Shown here: positions 14,836 through 28,434 of the stretch, piece after piece | Position numbering within the stretch: the stretch's first letter is position 1 | Layout of the letters: every line of letters starts with the position of its first letter | NCBI RefSeq assembly: GCF_900156285.1 | Contig: NZ_FTNC01000022.1 | Location: 1 to 43,523 of the forward strand | Reading direction: 5' to 3' | DNA from: Halanaerobium kushneri | GTDB taxonomy: Bacteria > Bacillota > Halanaerobiia > Halanaerobiales > Halanaerobiaceae | Length of the DNA stretch: 43,523 nt | Notes under the pieces: model-generated | Seen by the model: the letters and a program-made list of their open reading frames with translations, nothing else | Databases searched by the model: none | Told to the model about the DNA's origin: nothing | Position numbers and translations under genes: made by a program

Positions 14836-15387
14836 ATGATAAATCATCTACATATTTTAGGACCATCAGGTTCTGGGACTACAACAGTTGCTAAAGCACT
14901 GAGCAAAAAACATAATTTTGCTCATTTTGATGCTGATAATTATTTCTGGAAACCAACTGATCCCCCCTATCAGCAACTACGTTCAATTGAAGAACGCCGC
15001 TGTCTGCTAAAAAAAGATCTTAGAAATGAAAGCCGCTGGATAATTAGTGGTTCTTTTTGTGGCTGGGGAGATGTTTTTAGGGATTCCTTTGATCTTGTGA
15101 TCTATCTCTGGACACCAATTAATGTTAGATTAAGAAGGCTAAAAAGCAGAGAGCAGCAGCGGTTCGGCAGTGCAGTGCTGCCCGGAGGTAAAATGTTTGA
15201 GAGGCACCAGAAATTTTTAGATTCAGCGGCAAGATATGATTATGATCAGACGGAATTCAGAAACAGGAGAACCCACGAAGAGTGGATGCAGAAATTAAAT
15301 TGTCCGATTCTAAAAATTGAGGGCGAAAAAACAATCAAAGAGATTGTATCGTTAATAGAGGCTAAAATTGAAGAACTGGAAAGCTAA
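14836..15387 (+). CDS. P-loop kinase of the adenylate/shikimate-kinase-like group
   Basis: 183 residues. The nucleotide-binding loop is GPSGSGTTT (residues 9-17): the usual Walker A lysine is Thr. This SGSGTTT variant occurs in a recognised set of adenylate-kinase-like proteins, so it may be functional in its own way. The DADNYFW motif follows strand 2, and YLWTPINVRLRRLKSRE is a lid-like basic region. The substrate is unknown. RBS TAAGGAG. No operon partner is evident; a 2-hydroxyacid dehydrogenase gene follows after 47 bases. Confidence 0.78.
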   Translation: MINHLHILGPSGSGTTTVAKALSKKHNFAHFDADNYFWKPTDPPYQQLRSIEERRCLLKKDLRNESRWIISGSFCGWGDVFRDSFDLVIYLWTPINVRLRRLKSREQQRFGSAVLPGGKMFERHQKFLDSAARYDYDQTEFRNRRTHEEWMQKLNCPILKIEGEKTIKEIVSLIEAKIEELES

Positions 15388-18462: not shown

Positions 18463-19248
18463 ATGGAAGAGAAGGTTATAATCAGAAAAAATATCAGAAA
18501 ATTTAAAATAAACAAATTTATTGATGAACAGGATTTGATAATTAGTGAGGAACCACTGACACTCTTTATAAATGGCTATCAGTTTTTGACTCTGATGGTG
18601 CTTCAGGAAAATTTGGAAGAATTGATTATAGGTTTTCTGGCGGCAGAAGGAATTATCGAGGTTGAAAATGATCTAAAAAAAATTGATTTTAAATATGACA
18701 AAACTGTGGCTATGATTGAAGTAAAAGGAGATTTCTCACCAGCAGCCTATAAAAAAAGAACGTTAACATCGGGTTGTGGAGGAGGATCAACTTTTATTAA
18801 TCTTAAAGACTGTGCAGCAGCCAAAAACATTAGTTCTGACCTAAAAGTTATTGCAGCTAAAATTCCGCTTTTAATGAGCAACTTACAGCAGAATACAGAA
18901 TATTTTCACCAGACAGGGGGGACTCATATTGCAGCCCTGGCTACAGATAATCAGATTATTTATCAGTTTGAAGACATCGGACGTCATAATACCATCGACA
19001 AAGTTATTGGCAGGGCATTAAAGGACAATATTCAACTTGCAAATAAAATTGTTCTCACCAGTGGTAGAATTTCTTCGGAAATGGTTGTGAAAATCCTGAA
19101 ACAAAAAATACCATTTTTAGTCTCAAGATCGGCCCCGACAGAGGCGGCAATTAAAATAGCTAGAGCAAGAAATCTGACTTTGATAGGTTTCTGCAGGGGT
19201 AAGCGTTTTAACATTTATAGTGGGGAAGAAAGAATAAAATTAGATTAA
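18463..19248 (+). CDS. fdhD: FdhD, formate dehydrogenase accessory sulfurtransferase
   Basis: 261 residues. FdhD moves sulfur from IscS-type desulfurases to the bis-MGD cofactor of formate dehydrogenase. Seen: EEPLTLFINGYQFLTLM near the N-terminus, the active loop TSGCGGGSTF with C105, and the later FEDIGRHNTIDKVIG and SRSAPTEAAIKIARARNLTLIGF blocks. Only one cysteine is in the loop: the second Cys of the E. coli CxxC is Gly, as in many Firmicutes. No formate dehydrogenase gene is near. It ends 30 bases before the mutase B12-subunit gene, so it could be the first gene of that operon. RBS AGAGGAGTG. Confidence 0.93.
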   Translation: MEEKVIIRKNIRKFKINKFIDEQDLIISEEPLTLFINGYQFLTLMVLQENLEELIIGFLAAEGIIEVENDLKKIDFKYDKTVAMIEVKGDFSPAAYKKRTLTSGCGGGSTFINLKDCAAAKNISSDLKVIAAKIPLLMSNLQQNTEYFHQTGGTHIAALATDNQIIYQFEDIGRHNTIDKVIGRALKDNIQLANKIVLTSGRISSEMVVKILKQKIPFLVSRSAPTEAAIKIARARNLTLIGFCRGKRFNIYSGEERIKLD

Positions 19249-19278
19249 AATATTAAATTTAGATAGGAGAGGATTCTA

Positions 19279-19665
19279 TTGAAAAGTAAAAAAAGAATTT
19301 TAATTGCTAAATTAGGACTGGATGGCCATGACCGGGGAGCAAAAGTGGTTGCACGGGCTTTAAAAGATGCAGGGATGGAAGTAATTTATACCGGTCTCAG
19401 GAATACAGCTCAGGATATTGTGAGCACTGCCCTGCAGGAAGATGTTGATTTGATTGGCATTAGTATTCTTTCTGGGGCTCAAAAAACTCTTTTAAAAAAG
19501 TTATTTAGATTATTGGAGGAAGAAAAAATAGAAAATACTCCTGTTATTATAGGGGGAATAATTCCTCAGAGTGATTATAATTATCTTTATCAGTTAGGAG
19601 TTAAAAAAATTTTTGCTAGTGGTACTCCTCTATCAGAGATAGTAAATTATGTTGAGAATATTTAA
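19279..19665 (+). CDS. Methylmalonyl-CoA mutase, B12-binding subunit
   Basis: A stand-alone cobalamin-binding domain of 128 residues. The DGHDRG motif (residues 15-20) provides H17, the lower axial ligand to cobalt. SGAQKTLL and the later GGIIP fit the SxL and GG motifs of B12 domains. It would pair with the catalytic subunit encoded 7 kb downstream (26734-28434) to form a two-subunit mutase; such splits are known in archaea and several anaerobes. TTG start with GGAGAGGA upstream. Codes in the same direction as the rest of the cluster. Confidence 0.93.
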   Translation: MKSKKRILIAKLGLDGHDRGAKVVARALKDAGMEVIYTGLRNTAQDIVSTALQEDVDLIGISILSGAQKTLLKKLFRLLEEEKIENTPVIIGGIIPQSDYNYLYQLGVKKIFASGTPLSEIVNYVENI

Positions 19666-19724
19666 TCAGTGCCTGGATGAATTTATTTGTTTGCTTAGAT
19701 CAGGAAGTTAAAAGGTAATAGTGA

Positions 19725-19868
19725 TTGAGCCAACAGGCCAGCATATTTGAAGATTATTTAGCAAAAATATTAGCGGTAGAAACCGCGCCAGTTCAGCTTG
19801 TTGAGGAGTTTGTTGATAATAATTTAACAATCTTAGTTGACTTGTGGTCAGTTTTTTGCTATCCTTAA
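19725..19868 (+). CDS. 47-residue hypothetical ORF
   Basis: A TTG at 19725, weakly supported by AAAAGGT about nine bases upstream, opens a frame to TAA at 19868. The product (starting MSQQASIFEDYLAKILAVE) is an acidic amphipathic helix followed by a hydrophobic end, LTILVDLWSVFCYP. Codon use looks protein-like. It lies between the B12 subunit and epimerase genes, where other organisms often encode the mutase chaperone MeaB, but I see no MeaB similarity. It could be a small accessory protein, a remnant or a chance ORF. Confidence 0.38.
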   Translation: MSQQASIFEDYLAKILAVETAPVQLVEEFVDNNLTILVDLWSVFCYP

Positions 19869-19895
19869 TGGTGTCGATTAAGTAAAGGAGGTAAA

Positions 19896-20312
19896 ATGAA
19901 TCTCAAAAATATAGAACATATAGGGATTGCAGTTCAGAATCTGGAGAATGCCCTTAACTTTTATCAAAACATCCTGGGTTTAAAATTTATTAAGCGAGAA
20001 ATCGTGGAGACACAGGCGGTTGAGATAGCTTTTTTAAAAGTTGGAGAGAGTAAAATAGAGTTGCTTGAGCCCTTAAATGAAGAGAGTACTATTGCCAGAT
20101 TTCTCGAAAAGAACGGGGAAGGGATTCATCACTTTGCTATTTTAGTCGACAGCATTGAGGATAAGATAAAAGCAATGCAGGCTCAGGGAGCTAGATTGAT
20201 AGGAAATAAGGCAAGCGCTGGTGCAGACAATATGAAAATTATTTTTGTTCATCCCAGAAGTACTAACGGAGTCTTGTTAGAGTTATGTGAACCATTTGCT
20301 AAGGAGGAATAA
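19896..20312 (+). CDS. mce: Methylmalonyl-CoA epimerase
   Basis: 138 residues of the VOC/glyoxalase fold. It swaps the R and S forms of methylmalonyl-CoA, linking the mutase product to the decarboxylase. Metal ligands are visible as H9 in IEHIGIAV, a Glu in the middle (VEIAFLKVGESKIELLEPL), H in GIHHFAI and E in LLELCEP. Standard length. RBS AAAGGAGG. The stop is only two bases before the ATG of the next gene. Confidence 0.95.
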   Translation: MNLKNIEHIGIAVQNLENALNFYQNILGLKFIKREIVETQAVEIAFLKVGESKIELLEPLNEESTIARFLEKNGEGIHHFAILVDSIEDKIKAMQAQGARLIGNKASAGADNMKIIFVHPRSTNGVLLELCEPFAKEE

Positions 20313-20314
20313 TA

Positions 20315-21865
20315 ATGTCAGTAGAAGATAAGGAAAAATTATTAGAAGATAAAAAAGAGACGATTCGACAGGGTGGTGGCCAGGCAAGAATAGAAAAGCA
20401 GCACAAAAAGAATAAAAAAACCGCCAGAGAAAGAATAGAATACTTACTTGATGATAACACATTTAATGAATTAAATATGTTTGTAGAAAATCGCAGTACA
20501 TCTTTAGGCATGGACGAAAAGGAAGTGCCAGGAGAAGGTGTAGTAGTAGGTTATGGAACTATCGAAGGTAGGCTGGTTTATGTTTATGCTCAGGACTTTA
20601 CAGTAATGGGAGGTTCTGTTGGAGAAGCTCATGCACAAAAGATTTCTGAAGTAATGGACTTAGCTGTTAAGAACGGTGCGCCAGTTATTGGTTTAAATGA
20701 TTCCGGTGGAGCAAGAATCAATGAGGGTATAGACTCCCTTAATGGCTATGGAGAGATCTTTTATCGTAATACTAAAGCTTCTGGTGTGGTACCCCAGATT
20801 ACAGCAATTTTAGGGCCCTGTGCCGGTGGAGCAGTTTATTCACCAGCAATTACAGATTTTATAGTTATGGTTGACCAGACATCCAAGATGTTTATAACCG
20901 GTCCCAGTGTAGTTAAGTCAGTAACTGGGGAAGAAGTAACAGCAGAAGAACTTGGAGGAGCAGCCACCCATAATGAAATTAGTGGTGTAGCTCATTTTAT
21001 GGAAGCTAATGAGGAAGCAGCTTTAACCAGGATCAGAAAACTATTATCTTACATACCCGATAATTTTAAAGAAGAACCTGAAAGCCTGGAGAGTAATGAC
21101 AGTCCAGGTCGAAGTACAGAAGAATTAAAAGAGATAGTAAATGAAAACCCGAAAAAAGCTTACAATGTTAAAGATGTAATAGAAATTTTGGTTGATAGGG
21201 ATAGCTTTATGGAAATTCAGCCTTATTTTGCTAAAAATGCAGTAATCGGTTTTGCCAGATTAAATGGGCGCAGTGTGGGGATAGTAGCAAACCAACCTCA
21301 ATTTTTAGCCGGCTGTTTAAATATTGATGCATCAACTAAGATAGCAAGATTTATTCGTTTCTGTGACAGTTTTAATATTCCCATTATTTCGTTAGTAGAT
21401 GTTCCCGGATATTTACCCGGAGTTGAACAGGAATACGGAGGAGTAATCAGGCATGGAGCGAAAGTACTGTATGCATATTCAGAAGCGACAGTACCCAAGA
21501 TTACTTTAATAATGCGCAAAGCTTATGGAGGAGCGTATATAGCGATGGGAAGTCGTTCGGTAAGAGCTGATTTAGTTTATGCCTGGCCGATAGCAGAGAT
21601 AGCAGTTATGGGACCGGAGGGAGCAGCCAATGTAATTTACAGAAAAGAGATAAAGGCTGCAGATGATCCAGGTCAGCTGAGGCAGGAGAAAATAGACGAA
21701 TATAAGGATAACTTTGCCAATCCATATATTGCAGCAAAAAGAGGAATGGTAAATGATGTAATCAAGATGGAAGAAAGCAGAAATAAACTAATTAATGGTC
21801 TTGAGATGATGATTAACAAACGCGAAGATGGACAGGATAAAAAGCACGGTAATATTCCGTTATAA
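20315..21865 (+). CDS. mmdA: Methylmalonyl-CoA decarboxylase alpha subunit (carboxyltransferase)
   Basis: 516 residues of the acyl-CoA carboxylase beta-subunit type. It takes CO2 from (S)-methylmalonyl-CoA and places it on the biotin of the carrier domain, leaving propionyl-CoA. The N-terminal crotonase half has the oxyanion-forming GGSVGEAHAQK and GPCAGGAVYSPA segments; the C-terminal half has GFARLNGRSVGIVANQP and MRKAYGGAYIAMGS. Propionyl-CoA carboxylase beta is the main alternative, but adjacent membrane gamma and beta subunits favour the sodium-pump decarboxylase. RBS AAGGAGG overlaps the end of mce; translation is likely coupled. Confidence 0.95.
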   Translation: MSVEDKEKLLEDKKETIRQGGGQARIEKQHKKNKKTARERIEYLLDDNTFNELNMFVENRSTSLGMDEKEVPGEGVVVGYGTIEGRLVYVYAQDFTVMGGSVGEAHAQKISEVMDLAVKNGAPVIGLNDSGGARINEGIDSLNGYGEIFYRNTKASGVVPQITAILGPCAGGAVYSPAITDFIVMVDQTSKMFITGPSVVKSVTGEEVTAEELGGAATHNEISGVAHFMEANEEAALTRIRKLLSYIPDNFKEEPESLESNDSPGRSTEELKEIVNENPKKAYNVKDVIEILVDRDSFMEIQPYFAKNAVIGFARLNGRSVGIVANQPQFLAGCLNIDASTKIARFIRFCDSFNIPIISLVDVPGYLPGVEQEYGGVIRHGAKVLYAYSEATVPKITLIMRKAYGGAYIAMGSRSVRADLVYAWPIAEIAVMGPEGAANVIYRKEIKAADDPGQLRQEKIDEYKDNFANPYIAAKRGMVNDVIKMEESRNKLINGLEMMINKREDGQDKKHGNIPL

Positions 21866-21924
21866 AATAGTAGTTTGAAATTGCTTTTACAATTATTTGA
21901 TTATTTTAAGTTGGGAGGAATTAG

Positions 21925-22644
21925 ATGAATGTCTTAGGAGAAACACTGGAGATTACCGTAATTGGACTTTCCGTTGTTTTTTTAGTACTGCTTTTATTAA
22001 CTATCATTTTGAAGCTTCAGGGCTGGTTAATGGAAAAATTCTTTTTAAAAAGTAAAAAAGAAACCAAAAAGCAGGTTGAAAAAGAAGGAAATATAGCAAA
22101 AACAGAAAAGAAGAAAAGAGCTGTTATTGCTGCAGCGATAGATTCGTATCTTAAAGATCATCCGGCAGGATTTACTACTCAGGAGGGAAGAAATATGCAA
22201 AAGTATAAAATAAAAATTGATGACGAAATTTATGAAGTTGAAGTAGAATTAGTTGATGAGGGTAATAATATTAAATCAATTAATAAAAGTAATAATCAGA
22301 GTAAAAGTAAGTTTTCTACTATTTCAAAAGATAGTAATAGTACAACAGATAAACAGTCAGCAGCTAAAAAGAGAGCAGCTCAAATTAAGAGTAAAGAAAA
22401 ATCAAGAACTTCTTCGGTTTCTGAAGATGACGAACTGGAAATTAAAGCACCAATGCCAGGTCAGATCCTGATGCTTGCTGTTACAGAAGGAGAAGAAGTT
22501 CAGGAAGGACAGCATCTAGCAGTACTGGAAGCAATGAAAATGGAAAATGATATTACTGCACCAAAAGATGGTGTAATTAAAGAGGTATGTGTAAAAGAAG
22601 GTAAAGAGGTTAATTCTGGAGATAATTTGTTTATTTTAAATTAA
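21925..22644 (+). CDS. Fused decarboxylase gamma subunit and biotin carrier protein
   Basis: 239 residues. Residues 1-35 are an OadG/MmdD-type gamma subunit (MNVLGETLEITVIGLSVVFLVLLLLT, one membrane helix). A linker follows, then a BCCP part from M91 (MQKYKIKIDDEIYEVEVE) with a low-complexity Ser/Lys/Asn spacer (about 117-170). The biotinyl domain has EAMKMEN, in which K205 would be biotinylated. MmdD and MmdC are usually separate. An in-frame ATG at 22195 carries AGGAGGG at 22181-22187, so a free 149-residue carrier may also be made. RBS GGGAGGA. Confidence 0.9.
   Translation: MNVLGETLEITVIGLSVVFLVLLLLTIILKLQGWLMEKFFLKSKKETKKQVEKEGNIAKTEKKKRAVIAAAIDSYLKDHPAGFTTQEGRNMQKYKIKIDDEIYEVEVELVDEGNNIKSINKSNNQSKSKFSTISKDSNSTTDKQSAAKKRAAQIKSKEKSRTSSVSEDDELEIKAPMPGQILMLAVTEGEEVQEGQHLAVLEAMKMENDITAPKDGVIKEVCVKEGKEVNSGDNLFILN
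22181..22197 (+). promoter_or_regulatory. Internal ribosome binding site and start codon within the fusion gene
   Basis: AGGAGGG at 22181-22187, a seven-base spacer and ATG at 22195-22197, in frame with the fusion and exactly where the biotin-carrier part begins. It looks like a former gene boundary retained inside a fusion, or a deliberate second start. Confidence 0.55.
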
Positions 22645-22668: not shown

Positions 22669-23799
22669 GTGACAGATAAAATAATATTATTTTTACAGGG
22701 AAGTGGTTTTGCTCAATTGAGCTGGGGTCATATTGGAATGATTATCATTTCAGCTATTTTAATGTACCTTGCAATATTTAAGGAATATGAACCCCTTTTA
22801 CTATTACCAATTAGCTTTGGTATTTTCCTATCTAATATTCCAGGAACAGGATTAATGTCCGGCCCAACAGCTAAAACTGTTGGTGGTTTGCTGCATTATC
22901 TTTATGAGGGTGTAAGGTTGGGGATTTATCCTCCTTTAATATTTTTAGGAATTGGAGCTATGACTGATTTTGGACCACTAATTGCTCAACCCAAAACAAT
23001 GTTGTTGGGGGCAGCGGCTCAGTTGGGAATATTTACTACTTTTTTTGGTTCAAGATTATTAGGATTTAATCCAGCAGAGGCTGGTTCGATTGCAATAATT
23101 GGTGGTGCAGATGGACCAACATCTATTTATTTAACATCATTATTATCACCGCATTTACTGGGGCCAATAGCTATTGCAGCTTATATCTATATTGCTCTGG
23201 TACCTTTAATTCAGCCGCCAATTATTAAGTTTTTTACTACCAAAGAAGAACGATCAATTGAAATGGGTCAGATGAGGAGAGTTAAAAAAATTGAGAAATT
23301 AATTTTCCCAATTCTGGTTTCATTAATTGTTGGATTAATTGTACCACAGGCATTAACTCTGGTTGGTATGCTGATGTTAGGAAATATATTAAAAGAAAGT
23401 GGAGTTGCAAAAAGATTATCAGATACTGCCAGTACTGCAATGATAAATATTGTTACAATTCTTTTAATGTTGAGTGTTGGTGCAAGTTTGAAAGCTGAAC
23501 AGTTTTTTACTATTCAGTTTATTTCCATTATTGGACTGGGATTATCTGCTTTTGCCTTAAGTACTTTTTCAGGTTTAATGATGGGGAAATTAATGTATTA
23601 TTTAACAAATGGAAAAATCAACCCAATAATTGGTGCAGCAGGTGTTTCAGCAGTACCTGAAGCAGCTAGATGTTCTCAGAAGCTTGGAAATGAAGCAAAT
23701 CCAGGGAACTTTTTATTAATGCATGCTATGGGACCTAATGTAGCAGGAGTAATTGGTTCTGCTGTTGCAGCGGGAGTACTGTTATCAGTTTTAGGGTAG
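22669..23799 (+). CDS. mmdB: Methylmalonyl-CoA decarboxylase beta subunit (Na+ pump)
   Basis: 376 residues, about nine transmembrane segments, OadB/MmdB/GcdB family. It releases CO2 from carboxybiotin and exports Na+. Key family motifs are visible: GGADGPTSIYLTSLLSP (about residues 145-161), containing the essential Asp, and NPIIGAAGVSAVPEAARCSQK (about 323-343). The substrate type (methylmalonyl, oxaloacetate or glutaconyl) is set by the alpha subunit and context, both pointing to methylmalonyl-CoA. GTG start with AAAGGATGG upstream. Confidence 0.95.
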   Translation: MTDKIILFLQGSGFAQLSWGHIGMIIISAILMYLAIFKEYEPLLLLPISFGIFLSNIPGTGLMSGPTAKTVGGLLHYLYEGVRLGIYPPLIFLGIGAMTDFGPLIAQPKTMLLGAAAQLGIFTTFFGSRLLGFNPAEAGSIAIIGGADGPTSIYLTSLLSPHLLGPIAIAAYIYIALVPLIQPPIIKFFTTKEERSIEMGQMRRVKKIEKLIFPILVSLIVGLIVPQALTLVGMLMLGNILKESGVAKRLSDTASTAMINIVTILLMLSVGASLKAEQFFTIQFISIIGLGLSAFALSTFSGLMMGKLMYYLTNGKINPIIGAAGVSAVPEAARCSQKLGNEANPGNFLLMHAMGPNVAGVIGSAVAAGVLLSVLG

Positions 23800-23994: not shown

Positions 23995-24201
23995 ATGGCC
24001 AGAGGTGAGAGAATAGAAATTGAACATCCTGACTGGTGTAAAAACTGTGGTATTTGTGTTTCGGTTTGTCCAACAGATATTTTAATTAAAGGTAAAAAGA
24101 TAGTAGAAATTTTTGATTTAGAAAAGTGCATAGGCTGTCATAATTGTGAGTTGATTTGTCCTGACTTTGTGTTGAAGGTGGTGGCAAGTGATGAAGACTA
24201 A
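23995..24201 (+). CDS. korD: 2-oxoacid:ferredoxin oxidoreductase, ferredoxin-like delta subunit
   Basis: 68 residues with two 4Fe-4S motifs: CKNCGICVSVCP and CIGCHNCELICP. It passes electrons from the TPP enzyme core to ferredoxin. The ATG at 23995 is chosen over a GTG at 23986 because AAGGAG at 23981-23986 overlaps that GTG and is well spaced for the ATG. Its end overlaps the alpha-subunit gene by 14 bases, so the two are translationally coupled. Confidence 0.92.
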   Translation: MARGERIEIEHPDWCKNCGICVSVCPTDILIKGKKIVEIFDLEKCIGCHNCELICPDFVLKVVASDED

Positions 24202-25351
24202 AATATTTAAGCCAGAAAAAAGAGCGGTTCTTCTCCAGGGTGATCAGGCAGTTGTAGAAGGTGCACTGGCAGCAGGGGTAGAATTTTTTGCCGGTTATCC
24301 AATTACTCCCGCCTCCGAAATTGCGGAGGGTTTTGCCAGAGAACTGCCTAAAATTGGAGGCAAGTTTTTACAGATGGAAGACGAAATCGCCGGAATGGCT
24401 GCAGTGGTAGGTGCCTCACTTGCTGGGAAAAAATCAATTACTGCTACAAGTGGACCAGGATTTGCTCTCAAACAGGAGAATCTGGGCTTTGCAACTATGG
24501 TAGAAGCACCTTTAGTTGTAGTTAATGTGCAGAGAGTTGGTCCTTCAACTGGTCTCCCCACTTCACCTTCCCAGGGAGATTTGATGCAGACTCGCTGGGG
24601 GAGAAATGGTGATCAGGAAATAATTGCTCTGGCACCTGCTTCTGTAGCAGAAAGTTACGAACTGACAATTAAAGCAGTAAATTTAAGTGAGAAATTTAGG
24701 CAGCCGGTTGTTTTGCTGCTGGATGAAGTTATTGGGCATTTGAGAGAAAAAATATATTTAAATGACAGTGAAGAAATCGAAATAATTAACAGAAAGCGTC
24801 CCACCGCAGATCAGGATCCAAAAAGTTATCTTCCTTATCAGCAGACTGATGACTTAATTCCTCCCATGGCTGATTATGGTAGTGGTTTTAAATATCATAC
24901 AAGTGGTTTATTTCATGATCAGAGTGGATTTCCTGATGGTAAAAAGGAGACTGCCAAATTGATGCAGGACCGACTCCATAATAAGCTGCACAATAATTTG
25001 GAGCAGATAATATTTTATCAGAAAGATATTAGAAATGATGATCGGGTGGCAGTTTTGAGTTATGGATCGACTGCCAGAACAGCGATTAGTGCTGTCAATA
25101 CTGGACGAAAAGATAATCTGAAAGCTGGCTGGTTTAAACTACAGACAGTGTGGCCGTTTGCAGAAAGGGAAGTCGCCAAACTGGCAGCTCAGGTTGAGAC
25201 CATTATTGTACCTGAATTAAACCAGGGGCAGTTGATTAGAGAAGTTGAAAGAGCAGTCGCCGGTCAGGCCAGAGTTCTCGGGATAAATTCTTATGCAGGA
25301 GAATTAATTAAGCCGGAAGCAATCAGAGATCTAATGGAGGAGGTATTATAA
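24188..25351 (+). CDS. korA: 2-oxoacid:ferredoxin oxidoreductase, alpha subunit
   Basis: 387 residues. Converts a 2-oxoacid and CoA to acyl-CoA, CO2 and reduced ferredoxin, as part of the delta-alpha-beta-gamma complex. The GYPITPASEIAEGF motif and SGPGFALKQENLG are the family's CoA/2-oxoacid-binding region; VNVQRVGPSTGLPT follows. Subunit order and the succinyl-CoA pathway context support 2-oxoglutarate as substrate; branched-chain oxoacids cannot be excluded. Start GTG at 24188 or ATG at 24191; AAGGTGG at 24175-24181 fits both. The stop overlaps the next ATG by one base. Confidence 0.92.
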   Translation: MMKTKIFKPEKRAVLLQGDQAVVEGALAAGVEFFAGYPITPASEIAEGFARELPKIGGKFLQMEDEIAGMAAVVGASLAGKKSITATSGPGFALKQENLGFATMVEAPLVVVNVQRVGPSTGLPTSPSQGDLMQTRWGRNGDQEIIALAPASVAESYELTIKAVNLSEKFRQPVVLLLDEVIGHLREKIYLNDSEEIEIINRKRPTADQDPKSYLPYQQTDDLIPPMADYGSGFKYHTSGLFHDQSGFPDGKKETAKLMQDRLHNKLHNNLEQIIFYQKDIRNDDRVAVLSYGSTARTAISAVNTGRKDNLKAGWFKLQTVWPFAEREVAKLAAQVETIIVPELNQGQLIREVERAVAGQARVLGINSYAGELIKPEAIRDLMEEVL

Positions 25352-26175
25352 TGGAAACTGAAAAATATTTAAGAATGGATAAATTACCTCATATCTGGTG
25401 TCCGGGCTGTGGCCATGGGACTATTTTAAATTCATTTATTAGAGCTTTTACTGAAAGTGATTTAGATCAGGATAAAACAGTTGTGATCTCAGGTATTGGT
25501 TGTTCTGGCCGAGCTACCGGTTATTTAAATTTTGACACTCTGCATACTACTCACGGGAGAGCTATTGCTTTTGCTACAGGAGTTAAAATGGCCAATCCCA
25601 ACTTAAATGTTATTGTAATGACTGGAGACGGTGATGGGACTGCAATTGGTGGCAATCATTTAATTCATGCTGCTCGTCGGAATATTGATTTAACAGTTAT
25701 TTTATTTAATAATCAGATTTATGGAATGACAGGTGGACAATTTTCGCCAATGACTCCTCCCAGTGATATGGCAACCACTGCTCCATATGGCAATATTGAT
25801 CAAAACTTTGATCTGGCACAACTTGTCGAAGGAGCAGGAGGAACTTTTATTGCCCGAGGAGCTACTTTTGATCCCCGGCAGTTAAAAAGGTTATATCTTG
25901 CTGCCTTAAAACATAAGGGATTTTCTTTTGTAGAAAGCTTTTCGCAGTGTCCGGTTAGTTATGGACGTCAGAACGGAAGCGGAGATGCGGTAGAGATGTT
26001 GAAGAGTCAGAAAAAGAATACAGTAGACTTTAAAAAGTGGCAGCAGCTCAGTACTGAGAAAAAACAGCTTTTGTATCCCCTGGGAATTTTAAAAGAAGTG
26101 GATAGTCCTGAGAGTGAATATACTGTCCGTTATAAAAAGATTATTGCAAAAGCAAATCAAGAGGGGGCTTTATAA
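25351..26175 (+). CDS. korB: 2-oxoacid:ferredoxin oxidoreductase, beta subunit (TPP-binding)
   Basis: 274 residues. WCPGCGHG near residue 16, ISGIGCSGRATGY and the Mg/TPP motif GDGDGTAIGGNHLIHAARRN are all present, followed by FNNQIYGMTGGQFSPMTP. Typical of the 2-oxoglutarate-type beta subunit in length and motif order. Overlaps both neighbours by one base. Confidence 0.94.
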   Translation: METEKYLRMDKLPHIWCPGCGHGTILNSFIRAFTESDLDQDKTVVISGIGCSGRATGYLNFDTLHTTHGRAIAFATGVKMANPNLNVIVMTGDGDGTAIGGNHLIHAARRNIDLTVILFNNQIYGMTGGQFSPMTPPSDMATTAPYGNIDQNFDLAQLVEGAGGTFIARGATFDPRQLKRLYLAALKHKGFSFVESFSQCPVSYGRQNGSGDAVEMLKSQKKNTVDFKKWQQLSTEKKQLLYPLGILKEVDSPESEYTVRYKKIIAKANQEGAL

Positions 26176-26747
26176 TGAATAGATATGAAATTAGACTAAG
26201 TGGTGCCGGAGGTCAGGGAATGATTTTAGCTGGGAAAATTCTGGCTGAGGCAGGAGTTATGGTTGATAATTTAAATATTAGTCAGAGTCAGTCTTATGGT
26301 CCGGAATCAAGAGGGGGAGCCAGCCGGTCTGAGATTGTTTTTGATGAAGACCAGATTGATTTTCCTAAAGTTATTAAACCTGATCTTTTAGTCTGTTTGA
26401 CTCAGGAGTCCTTTGATCAGTACGGATCTGATTTAAAAAGTTATGGAGTAATTATTGTTGATAGTAGAATTGATATTTCTGCTGTTAGACAGGAATTTAA
26501 AGATAATGTTTATCAGCTAAATATTCTAGATCTGGCTGCTAGAAAAATTGGGGAAGAAATTTCTGCTAATATGATTGTATTGGGGGTTATTTCCAGAATT
26601 ATACAGAACAAAATTCCAGTAGAGTTTATTAAAAAGGCAATAATCGAAAAGGTCCCCCCGGAAACTATTGATATTAATATGGAGGCTTTTGATTTGGGTT
26701 TTGATTTAAAACTTGATAAAAGGAGCTATATTTATGGGAGAATATAA
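26175..26747 (+). CDS. korC: 2-oxoacid:ferredoxin oxidoreductase, gamma subunit
   Basis: 190 residues. [20 protein letters not shown] and [16 protein letters not shown] are the family's signature blocks. It completes the four-subunit oxidoreductase. RBS GAGGGGG. Its last 14 bases overlap the mutase catalytic-subunit gene, which ties the oxidoreductase to methylmalonyl-CoA chemistry at the translation level. Confidence 0.93.
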
Positions 26748-28434
26748 AGATAAAGAACAGAGTGAAAATGAATATTGGAGTTTAAAGGAGAATGAAAAAA
26801 GCTGGCAGGAAAACAAATATCAAAAAACAGCAGAACGTTTTGGTTTGAGGAAGGATGTTTTTTCTTCTGATACAGAATTCAAAATTAAACCTCTTTATAC
26901 ACCCCTGGATTCTCAGAATATTAATTATAAAAAGAAGCTTTCATTTCCTGGAGAGTTTCCATTTACCAGAGGAGTTTATCCAACAATGTATCGTTCCCGT
27001 CTCTGGACAATGAGACAGTATTCGGGATATGGTACTGCCAGAGAAACAAATAATCGATTCAAATATCTTTTAAAACAGGGGCAGTCTGGTTTGAGCGTTG
27101 CCTTCGATCTTCCCACACAAATTGGTTATGACTCTGATCATCAGCTGGCTGAGGGAGAGGTAGGAAAAGTAGGGGTAGCAATTGATAGCGTAGAAGATAT
27201 GAAAATTCTTTTTGATGATATTCCCCTGGCCGAAGTTAGTACTTCAATGACAATTAATGCACCGGCTGCAGTTGTTCTGGCAATGTATATTGTAGCGGCC
27301 GAAGAGAAAGGGATTGCGCCTGAACAGCTGTCCGGGACTATTCAAAATGATATTTTGAAAGAATATGTTGCTCGAGGAACTTATATTTACCCACCTGAAC
27401 CTTCACTGCGTCTGATTACAGATATTTTTGATTATTGTTCTCAAAAGATGCCTGGCTTTAACACAATTAGTATTAGTGGCTATCATATTCGGGAAGCAGG
27501 CTCAACTGCTGTTCAGGAACTTGCTTTTACTCTGGCAGATGCTTTGACTTATGTGGAAGCAGCTTTAAAAATTGGTCTTGATATTGATGATTTTGCTCCA
27601 AGACTGTCATTTTTCTTTGCTGCTCAGATGAATCTAATGGAAGAAACAGCTAAATTTAGAGCGGCCAGGAGACTCTGGGCTGAAATTATGGAAGAAAAAT
27701 TTGGGGCAGAAAAGAAGAAGTCGAAACTGCTGCGTTTTCATACCCAGACTGCGGGAACTGCTTTAACAGCCAGTCAGCCCTTAAATAATATAATTAGAGT
27801 AACAATCCAGGCAATGGCAGCTGTTTTTGGTGGCACTCAATCTCTGCATACAAATTCTTATGATGAAGCTTTGTCTCTTCCCTCTGAAGAAGCAGTAGAA
27901 ATAGCTTTGAGAACTCAACAGATTATTGCAGAAGAAAGTGGAATTGCTGATGTTATTGATCCACTTGGAGGTTCCTACTATTTAGAAGAATTAACGGATA
28001 CTTTTGTAGAAAAAAGTCGTAAATATTTAAATAAAATTGATCAACTTGGTGGAATGATAGAGGCAATAAAAACAGGTTATATACAGCGAGAAATTCAGGA
28101 AAGCGCCTATCAAAAGCAAAAGGAGATTGACCAAAAAAAGAAAGTAGTGGTTGGAGTCAATCGATACCAGACAGAAAATCATAACTCGGGAATAGAACTG
28201 CATCAACTTAATCCAGATCTAGAAACAGATCAGATAGCAGATCTGAAAAAAATCAAAAACAGTAGAGACCAAAAAAAGCTTCAAAAAGCATTAAAAGCAG
28301 TTAAATCTACTGCTAAAACTAATGAAAATTTAATGCCAGCTATTATTCAAGCCGTTAGGGCTAGAGCAACTTTAGGTGAAATAAACGATCAATTAAGAGA
28401 AGTATTTGGTGAGTATCAAAATAGAAATATATAA
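26734..28434 (+). CDS. Methylmalonyl-CoA mutase, catalytic subunit
   Basis: 566 residues forming only the substrate-binding barrel; the C-terminal B12 domain is absent and is encoded separately at 19279. Y96 in RQYSGYG and R226 in PSLRLITD are the two residues expected in methylmalonyl-CoA mutases (Phe and Gln in isobutyryl-CoA mutases). The catalytic His is in SGYHIREAG. So it likely converts succinyl-CoA to (R)-methylmalonyl-CoA. The ATG at 26734 with AAAAGGAGC upstream is chosen over an in-frame TTG at 26713. A terminator follows. Confidence 0.94.

Follow-up and report, generated by a model that had tools for sequence, protein, structure and literature searches.

A fused anchor and biotin-carrier gene in a Halanaerobium Na+-pump operon keeps an internal ribosome-binding site and start codon, which probably give a second, free carrier

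The window analysed here is a stretch of 43,523 nucleotides from the salt-loving anaerobe Halanaerobium kushneri (assembly GCF_900156285.1, contig NZ_FTNC01000022.1). At 21925-22644 on the forward strand lies a single open reading frame of 239 residues, in which an OAD_gamma/MmdD-type anchor is joined to an MmdC-type biotin carrier. The fused gene sits between mmdA and mmdB, giving the operon mmdA-[fusion]-mmdB. The features of the locus are as follows, where G009 and G010 are two other species of the genus and G000 is the genome of the window.

19279-19665, forward strand: methylmalonyl-CoA mutase, B12-binding domain subunit (TIGR00640, above cut-off)
19896-20312, forward strand: methylmalonyl-CoA epimerase (TIGR03081, above cut-off)
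20315-21865, forward strand: mmdA, carboxyltransferase alpha subunit of the pump (TIGR01117 best match, full length)
21914-21921, forward strand: ribosome-binding site of the full-length product, in the GGGAGGAA region upstream of ATG 21925 (predicted -10.2 kcal/mol)
21925-22644, forward strand: fused mmdD-mmdC gene (Pfam and NCBIfam matches, orthologues in G009 and G010)
21925-22158, forward strand: anchor part, with a predicted long helix 2-78 that includes a transmembrane segment, OAD_gamma 7-75 (Pfam, AlphaFold model)
22181-22187, forward strand: internal Shine-Dalgarno sequence AGGAGGG in codons CAG GAG GGA (Gln-Glu-Gly; predicted -10.8 kcal/mol)
22195-22197, forward strand: in-frame ATG within the fused gene (codon 91), where a free carrier of 149 residues is proposed to start
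22195-22641, forward strand: complete MmdC-type carrier, comprising beta-hairpin 91-108, disordered linker 112-167 and biotinyl domain 171-238
22669-23799, forward strand: mmdB, beta subunit of the Na+-translocating decarboxylase (TIGR01109, 472 bits, cut-off 191)
24188-26747, forward strand: 2-oxoacid:ferredoxin oxidoreductase subunits (Pfam POR_N, PFOR_II, TPP_enzyme_C, POR)
26713-28434, forward strand: methylmalonyl-CoA mutase, catalytic subunit (TIGR00641, above cut-off)

The two parts of the fused protein are both recognised by profile searches. OAD_gamma (PF04277) matches residues 7-75 with 54.9 bits (cut-off 27), and the anchor part also matches TIGR01195 (38.6 bits, cut-off 36). Biotin_lipoyl (PF00364) matches residues 172-238 with 77.3 bits (cut-off 22.1); the carrier part contains the biotin attachment motif EAMKMEN, with its biotin lysine, and the solved structures nearest to it are gamma chains of methylmalonyl-CoA decarboxylase (2d5d). 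An AlphaFold2 model of the fused protein, built from a 13-row alignment and with a mean pLDDT of 74.6, predicts a single long helix from residue 2 to 78, then a loop, then a beta-hairpin that begins at residue 91. The stretch 112-167 is modelled with low confidence and is probably disordered, and the biotinyl domain at 171-238 is modelled confidently.

The mmdA product scores 858 bits against TIGR01117 (E 2e-258), short of the 999 set as cut-off for that subfamily model, and the pump parts present by profile matches are an MmdA-family alpha subunit, an MmdB-type beta subunit, an OadG/MmdD-type anchor and an MmdC-type carrier. Because mutase and epimerase genes adjoin the operon, we infer methylmalonyl-CoA as the substrate, and the 2-oxoacid:ferredoxin oxidoreductase is the probable source of succinyl-CoA. 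This setting fits a Na+-pumping methylmalonyl-CoA decarboxylase in a route from succinyl-CoA to propionyl-CoA. In Veillonella parvula, the Na+-translocating methylmalonyl-CoA decarboxylase is encoded by mmdA, mmdD, mmdC and mmdB as separate genes. The Halanaerobium locus resembles that enzyme in its alpha, beta, delta and gamma parts, its order A-D-C-B, its biotin motif and its mutase and epimerase neighbours, but differs in that D and C form one frame with the start signals of C inside it.

The seam between the two parts reads ACT CAG GAG GGA AGA AAT ATG CAA AAG TAT, wherein AGGAGGG is followed after a spacer of 7 nt (AAGAAAT) by the ATG at 22195, in frame with the ATG at 21925. Residue 91 is aligned with the first Met of unfused, stand-alone MmdC proteins, and the carrier's beta-hairpin begins with it in the AlphaFold model, so a product initiated at 22195 would be a complete MmdC. 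Its 149 residues are the same length as stated for the gamma chain behind PDB 2d5d. A preliminary description of the locus had claimed MmdD/OadG-like and BCCP parts in one 239-residue frame, with AGGAGGG, a spacer of seven bases and an in-frame ATG (22195) at the seam, the ATG placed where BCCP proteins normally begin; the Pfam matches, a direct reading of the sequence and the alignment to unfused MmdC starts bear this out in turn. Predicted pairing with the anti-Shine-Dalgarno sequence is -10.8 kcal/mol for the internal site versus -10.2 kcal/mol for the gene's own start, and across 367 ORFs from 434 kb of G000 the best starts have a median of -8.4 kcal/mol. Ranked against real starts, the initiation region of two species has little structure (11th and 31st percentile) and that of the window a moderate amount (76th percentile). 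We see no significant RNA fold in the window that might hide or expose the internal site (z +0.66), and an Rfam search of the window gave no RNA element.

Background rates for such sites were drawn from 434 kb of the window genome and roughly 300 kb from G009. There are 54 occurrences of AGGAGG in 269 kb of internal coding sequence from G000, with seven distinct cases having an in-frame start 5-9 nt downstream; 189 kb from G009 holds 31, and the only one with such a start lies at the seam of the fusion's orthologue. A strong internal AGGAGG with an in-frame start is uncommon, not unique, and a rate of about seven comparable sites per 269 kb of coding sequence counts against a dual-product reading of the gene. 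The site stands above chance because it coincides with a domain seam and is kept in all three species that carry the fusion.

Carrier-like matches are present in all 38 genomes of the order, and the fusion in three of the 12 genomes (species) of the genus, namely G000, G009 and G010. The G009 orthologue is full length, free of stops and 54% identical; that of G010 is 81-82% identical and split between two contigs, which join just past the seam. The break in the G010 assembly falls a few codons past the internal start, the contig ends overlapping by about 4 bases (L058:1-5 and L059:10739-10743). No further copy of the fusion turned up in the 38 order genomes or, with either the carrier or the beta subunit as query, in a 398-genome sample of the phylum, and no independent OadG-BCCP fusion was found among the long BCCP frames of the phylum sample. 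A pattern scan of genome contigs gave no further close fusion among the matches listed, which were mostly LEAMKME matches, and a pattern search of viral contigs found nothing. The fusion is confirmed as real, and as rare among the genomes searched. Two sets of candidates were rejected: a 235-aa frame in G021, where the OadG ORF ends in TAG and the 125-aa BCCP ORF is separate, and matches in Alistipes, Bacteroidales and Ignavibacteriales, which are in-frame neighbours split by one stop. In a tree, the three fused pumps group by their beta subunits in one clade with 100/100 support and a long stem; the fusion therefore most simply arose once, and the site has been kept since the three last shared an ancestor.

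Comparison of these sequences leads us to the reading that the internal start has been retained and is probably working, in which case the gene would give both anchored and free carriers. Two adjacent in-frame cistrons, mmdD and mmdC, would have merged by stop loss, with survival of the ribosome-binding site and start of the second. The full-length product would then be a carrier tethered to the membrane beside the MmdB pump, and initiation at 22195 would yield free, complete MmdC of 149 residues. Both products would be biotinylated, and the free form would raise the ratio of carrier to anchor. That a free carrier would alter pump stoichiometry is a further step beyond the existence of two products. 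Our opinion is evenly divided on the fullest version of this proposal, in which one pump gene gives tethered and free carriers, the start has been selected since an old fusion, and carriers exceed anchors by a margin that depends on how strong the two ribosome-binding sites are relative to each other. Paired N-terminal proteoforms from in-frame starts have been shown by riboproteogenomics in Salmonella (PMC11005335). Internal Shine-Dalgarno sequences are depleted in highly expressed genes (PMC5100845), so a strong one kept in a gene of energy metabolism would be the more notable.

Unfused loci of the genus suggest, by analogy, a likely origin of the site. There mmdD ends AAA AGA TAG GAG CTG, and its TAG stop begins the Shine-Dalgarno sequence of mmdC (TAGGAG); in one copy, from G008, the junction reads TAG GAG CTG AAT AAT ATG, with the stop in frame with the mmdC ATG and, as in the fusion, a distance of 15 nt. 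The fusion has CAG at the codon that matches the TAG stop. Because the mmdD stop lies inside the mmdC ribosome-binding site, its loss would fuse the genes with the site kept, and a single T-to-C change (TAG to CAG) would join mmdD and mmdC and leave the ribosome-binding site untouched. The proposed stop-loss origin is argued by analogy since the beta subunit of the fused pump is not nested in the unfused clade of the genus. In-frame D-C neighbours split by one stop are seen in other families and phyla too. In other families of the order, the junctions L042, L054 and L055 have AGGAGG in the last mmdD codons before the stop, and a ribosome-binding site of mmdC within the end of mmdD appears to extend beyond this genus.

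Most simply, then, the internal site is a leftover of an ordinary mmdD/mmdC junction, and because the ribosome-binding site of unfused mmdC overlaps the mmdD stop, the existence of the site alone is no proof of dual function. The main alternative reading stops at this point: the Shine-Dalgarno sequence and ATG would be a fossil with no meaningful use, the gene would give one tethered carrier only, and Gln-Glu-Gly would have been kept by chance or by protein constraints at the seam. We regard this as possible but rather unlikely. The junction of the unfused relatives directly explains where the site came from, as the fossil reading needs, and yet the AGGAGGG of the fusion is better than their TAGGAG.

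Conservation bears more directly on the choice between the two. Whether relatives with the fusion keep the internal site was a check set beforehand in the preliminary description, and all three fusions do retain CAGGAGGG followed after 7 nt by a start codon (ATG, ATG and TTG), with a predicted anti-Shine-Dalgarno pairing of -10.8 kcal/mol in each species. The seams read CAG GAG GGA AGA AAT ATG in G000, CAG GAG GGT ACA AAT ATG in G010 and CAG GAG GGA AAA AAA TTG in G009, and the corresponding peptides (TTQEGRNM, IKQEGTNM and NFQEGKKL for G000, G010 and G009, respectively) differ in flanking codons on both sides; the alignment also has a two-codon gap in G009 immediately upstream of the site. 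In G009 the internal start has changed from Met to Leu, using the codon TTG, a minor one for Leu in that genome (11% of Leu codons) and the best-scoring start in 49 of 248 of its ORFs. Synonymous sites between G000 and G009 are near saturation (same codon at 57% of conserved residues, 51% expected at saturation), and the persistence of Shine-Dalgarno sequence, spacing and start codon despite this, with substitutions on both sides, speaks against a fossil. When codons were resampled with the protein fixed, a Shine-Dalgarno sequence this good arose in 16.5% of draws for G000 and 9.5% for G009, and together with the start codon in 0.9% of draws for G009; these values are modest, were obtained post hoc and draw on what amounts to two independent lineages. 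They suggest, short of proof, selection on the site, and odds of 10-17% per lineage for the codon choice, not being extreme, leave room for a fossil.

Control sites, few in number, cut both ways. In a sample of 48 orthologue pairs from G000 and G009, five distinct internal Shine-Dalgarno-start sites of -9 kcal/mol or stronger were comparable, and three of the five are lost in the other species, the two kept being the seam and a site at PGGKM. Put differently, three of the four non-seam sites are lost, even where the protein motif is largely retained, which weighs against passive survival of the seam site. The kept control lies in the same window, in a kinase-like gene (ORF 14836-15387) with ATG 15193 and a Shine-Dalgarno-start stretch at 15181-15195, CCGGAGGTAAAATG. 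It is evidently kept for protein reasons, as the unchanged residues largely dictate GGAGG, and it therefore warns, in line with the fossil reading, that retention alone can mislead. Unlike at PGGKM, the neighbouring residues at the seam do change.

We consider it improbable that the site acts instead as an elongation pause, wherein ribosomes slowed at the Shine-Dalgarno sequence (about codon 88) give time for the N-terminal helix to insert in the membrane and no second protein is made. The site does come directly after the predicted helix 2-78, at a point where a pause might plausibly occur with the transmembrane segment already clear of the ribosome, but the kept start codon and 7-nt spacing, including the change from ATG to TTG, would go unexplained, and slowing by internal Shine-Dalgarno sequences has been termed controversial (PMC5100845). 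An assembly or sequencing error (or chimera) that removed a stop codon and so created a false fusion, as might be suspected from the several relatives with unfused genes in the same frame, split by a single stop, and from the contig break just past the seam in G010, is ruled out by the independent, full-length, stop-free G009 orthologue and the identical Shine-Dalgarno codons (CAG GAG) at the G010 seam.

Returning to the retained, probably working start, related pumps indicate what a second carrier form might mean. Glutaconyl-CoA decarboxylase of Clostridium symbiosum, of the same pump family, has two carriers, GcdC1 and GcdC2, in one complex with composition 4A:2B:C1:C2:2D, and its head is proposed to be bridged to the membrane base by a stretch of A together with the C-terminal region of D and the N-terminal region of C (PMC7145394). 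Those carriers are distinct, slightly different subunits, whereas the two putative forms here would come from one gene with two starts, one of them tethered. A D-C fusion places the bridge pieces in cis and meets a 1:1 ratio; by this analogy, a fusion making only the full-length product would already fit the ratio of two carriers to two anchors (PMC7145394), which counts against the dual-product reading. In oxaloacetate decarboxylase (OadA, OadG, OadB), OadG is homologous to the anchor part here, and the biotin domain is fused to alpha instead of to the gamma/delta anchor. OadG and OadB form a beta3gamma3 core, the C-terminal tail of OadG binds alpha, and as many as six alpha subunits, all carrying a biotin domain of their own, could attach to the core (PMC7274780). 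It is conceivable for this reason that carriers outnumber anchors, and free MmdC from the internal start would permit it.

The closest precedent in principle is Cas11, an internal in-frame translation product of cas8 and cas10 genes that is encoded by a separate gene in other systems (PMC11899642). There, as putatively here, the C-terminal part of a larger protein is additionally produced by itself, providing extra copies of a small subunit; the Cas11 proteins are unrelated to ours and their case has been demonstrated experimentally, ours being known from sequence. If the dual-product reading is true, operon neighbours can fuse without losing a separate second subunit, the stop being lost and the ribosome-binding site kept, in parallel both to Cas11 in CRISPR complexes and to the two-carrier asymmetry of the C. 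symbiosum enzyme. The gene would also serve as a natural experiment on whether Na+-pumping decarboxylases require carriers free of a one-to-one tie to the anchor, and an annotation listing just the fused protein would miss the free carrier. Among the papers searched, none on this enzyme in Halanaerobium was found.

Some further differences were seen between the genomes. At the G009 and G010 loci, the order is chemoreceptor, mmdA, fusion, mmdB and a ComFB-like gene, each directly after the other, and the FdhD, mutase, epimerase and oxidoreductase genes of the window (18463-20312 and 24188-28434) have no counterpart there, so that a gene block around the operon has been gained or lost between the window genome and these two. 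G000 and G009 each also have a second, unfused pump. The two pumps of the window genome are 92% identical in alpha (20315-21865 versus L060:7427-8977) and only 63% in beta, and the alpha subunit of the fused pump is 87% identical between the window genome and G009; this suggests that mmdA has been replaced or gene-converted between the two pumps. On contig 12 of G000, a transposase-like ORF (L060:5975-7168) separates mmdA from mmdD of the unfused pump, and this second operon may thus be interrupted.
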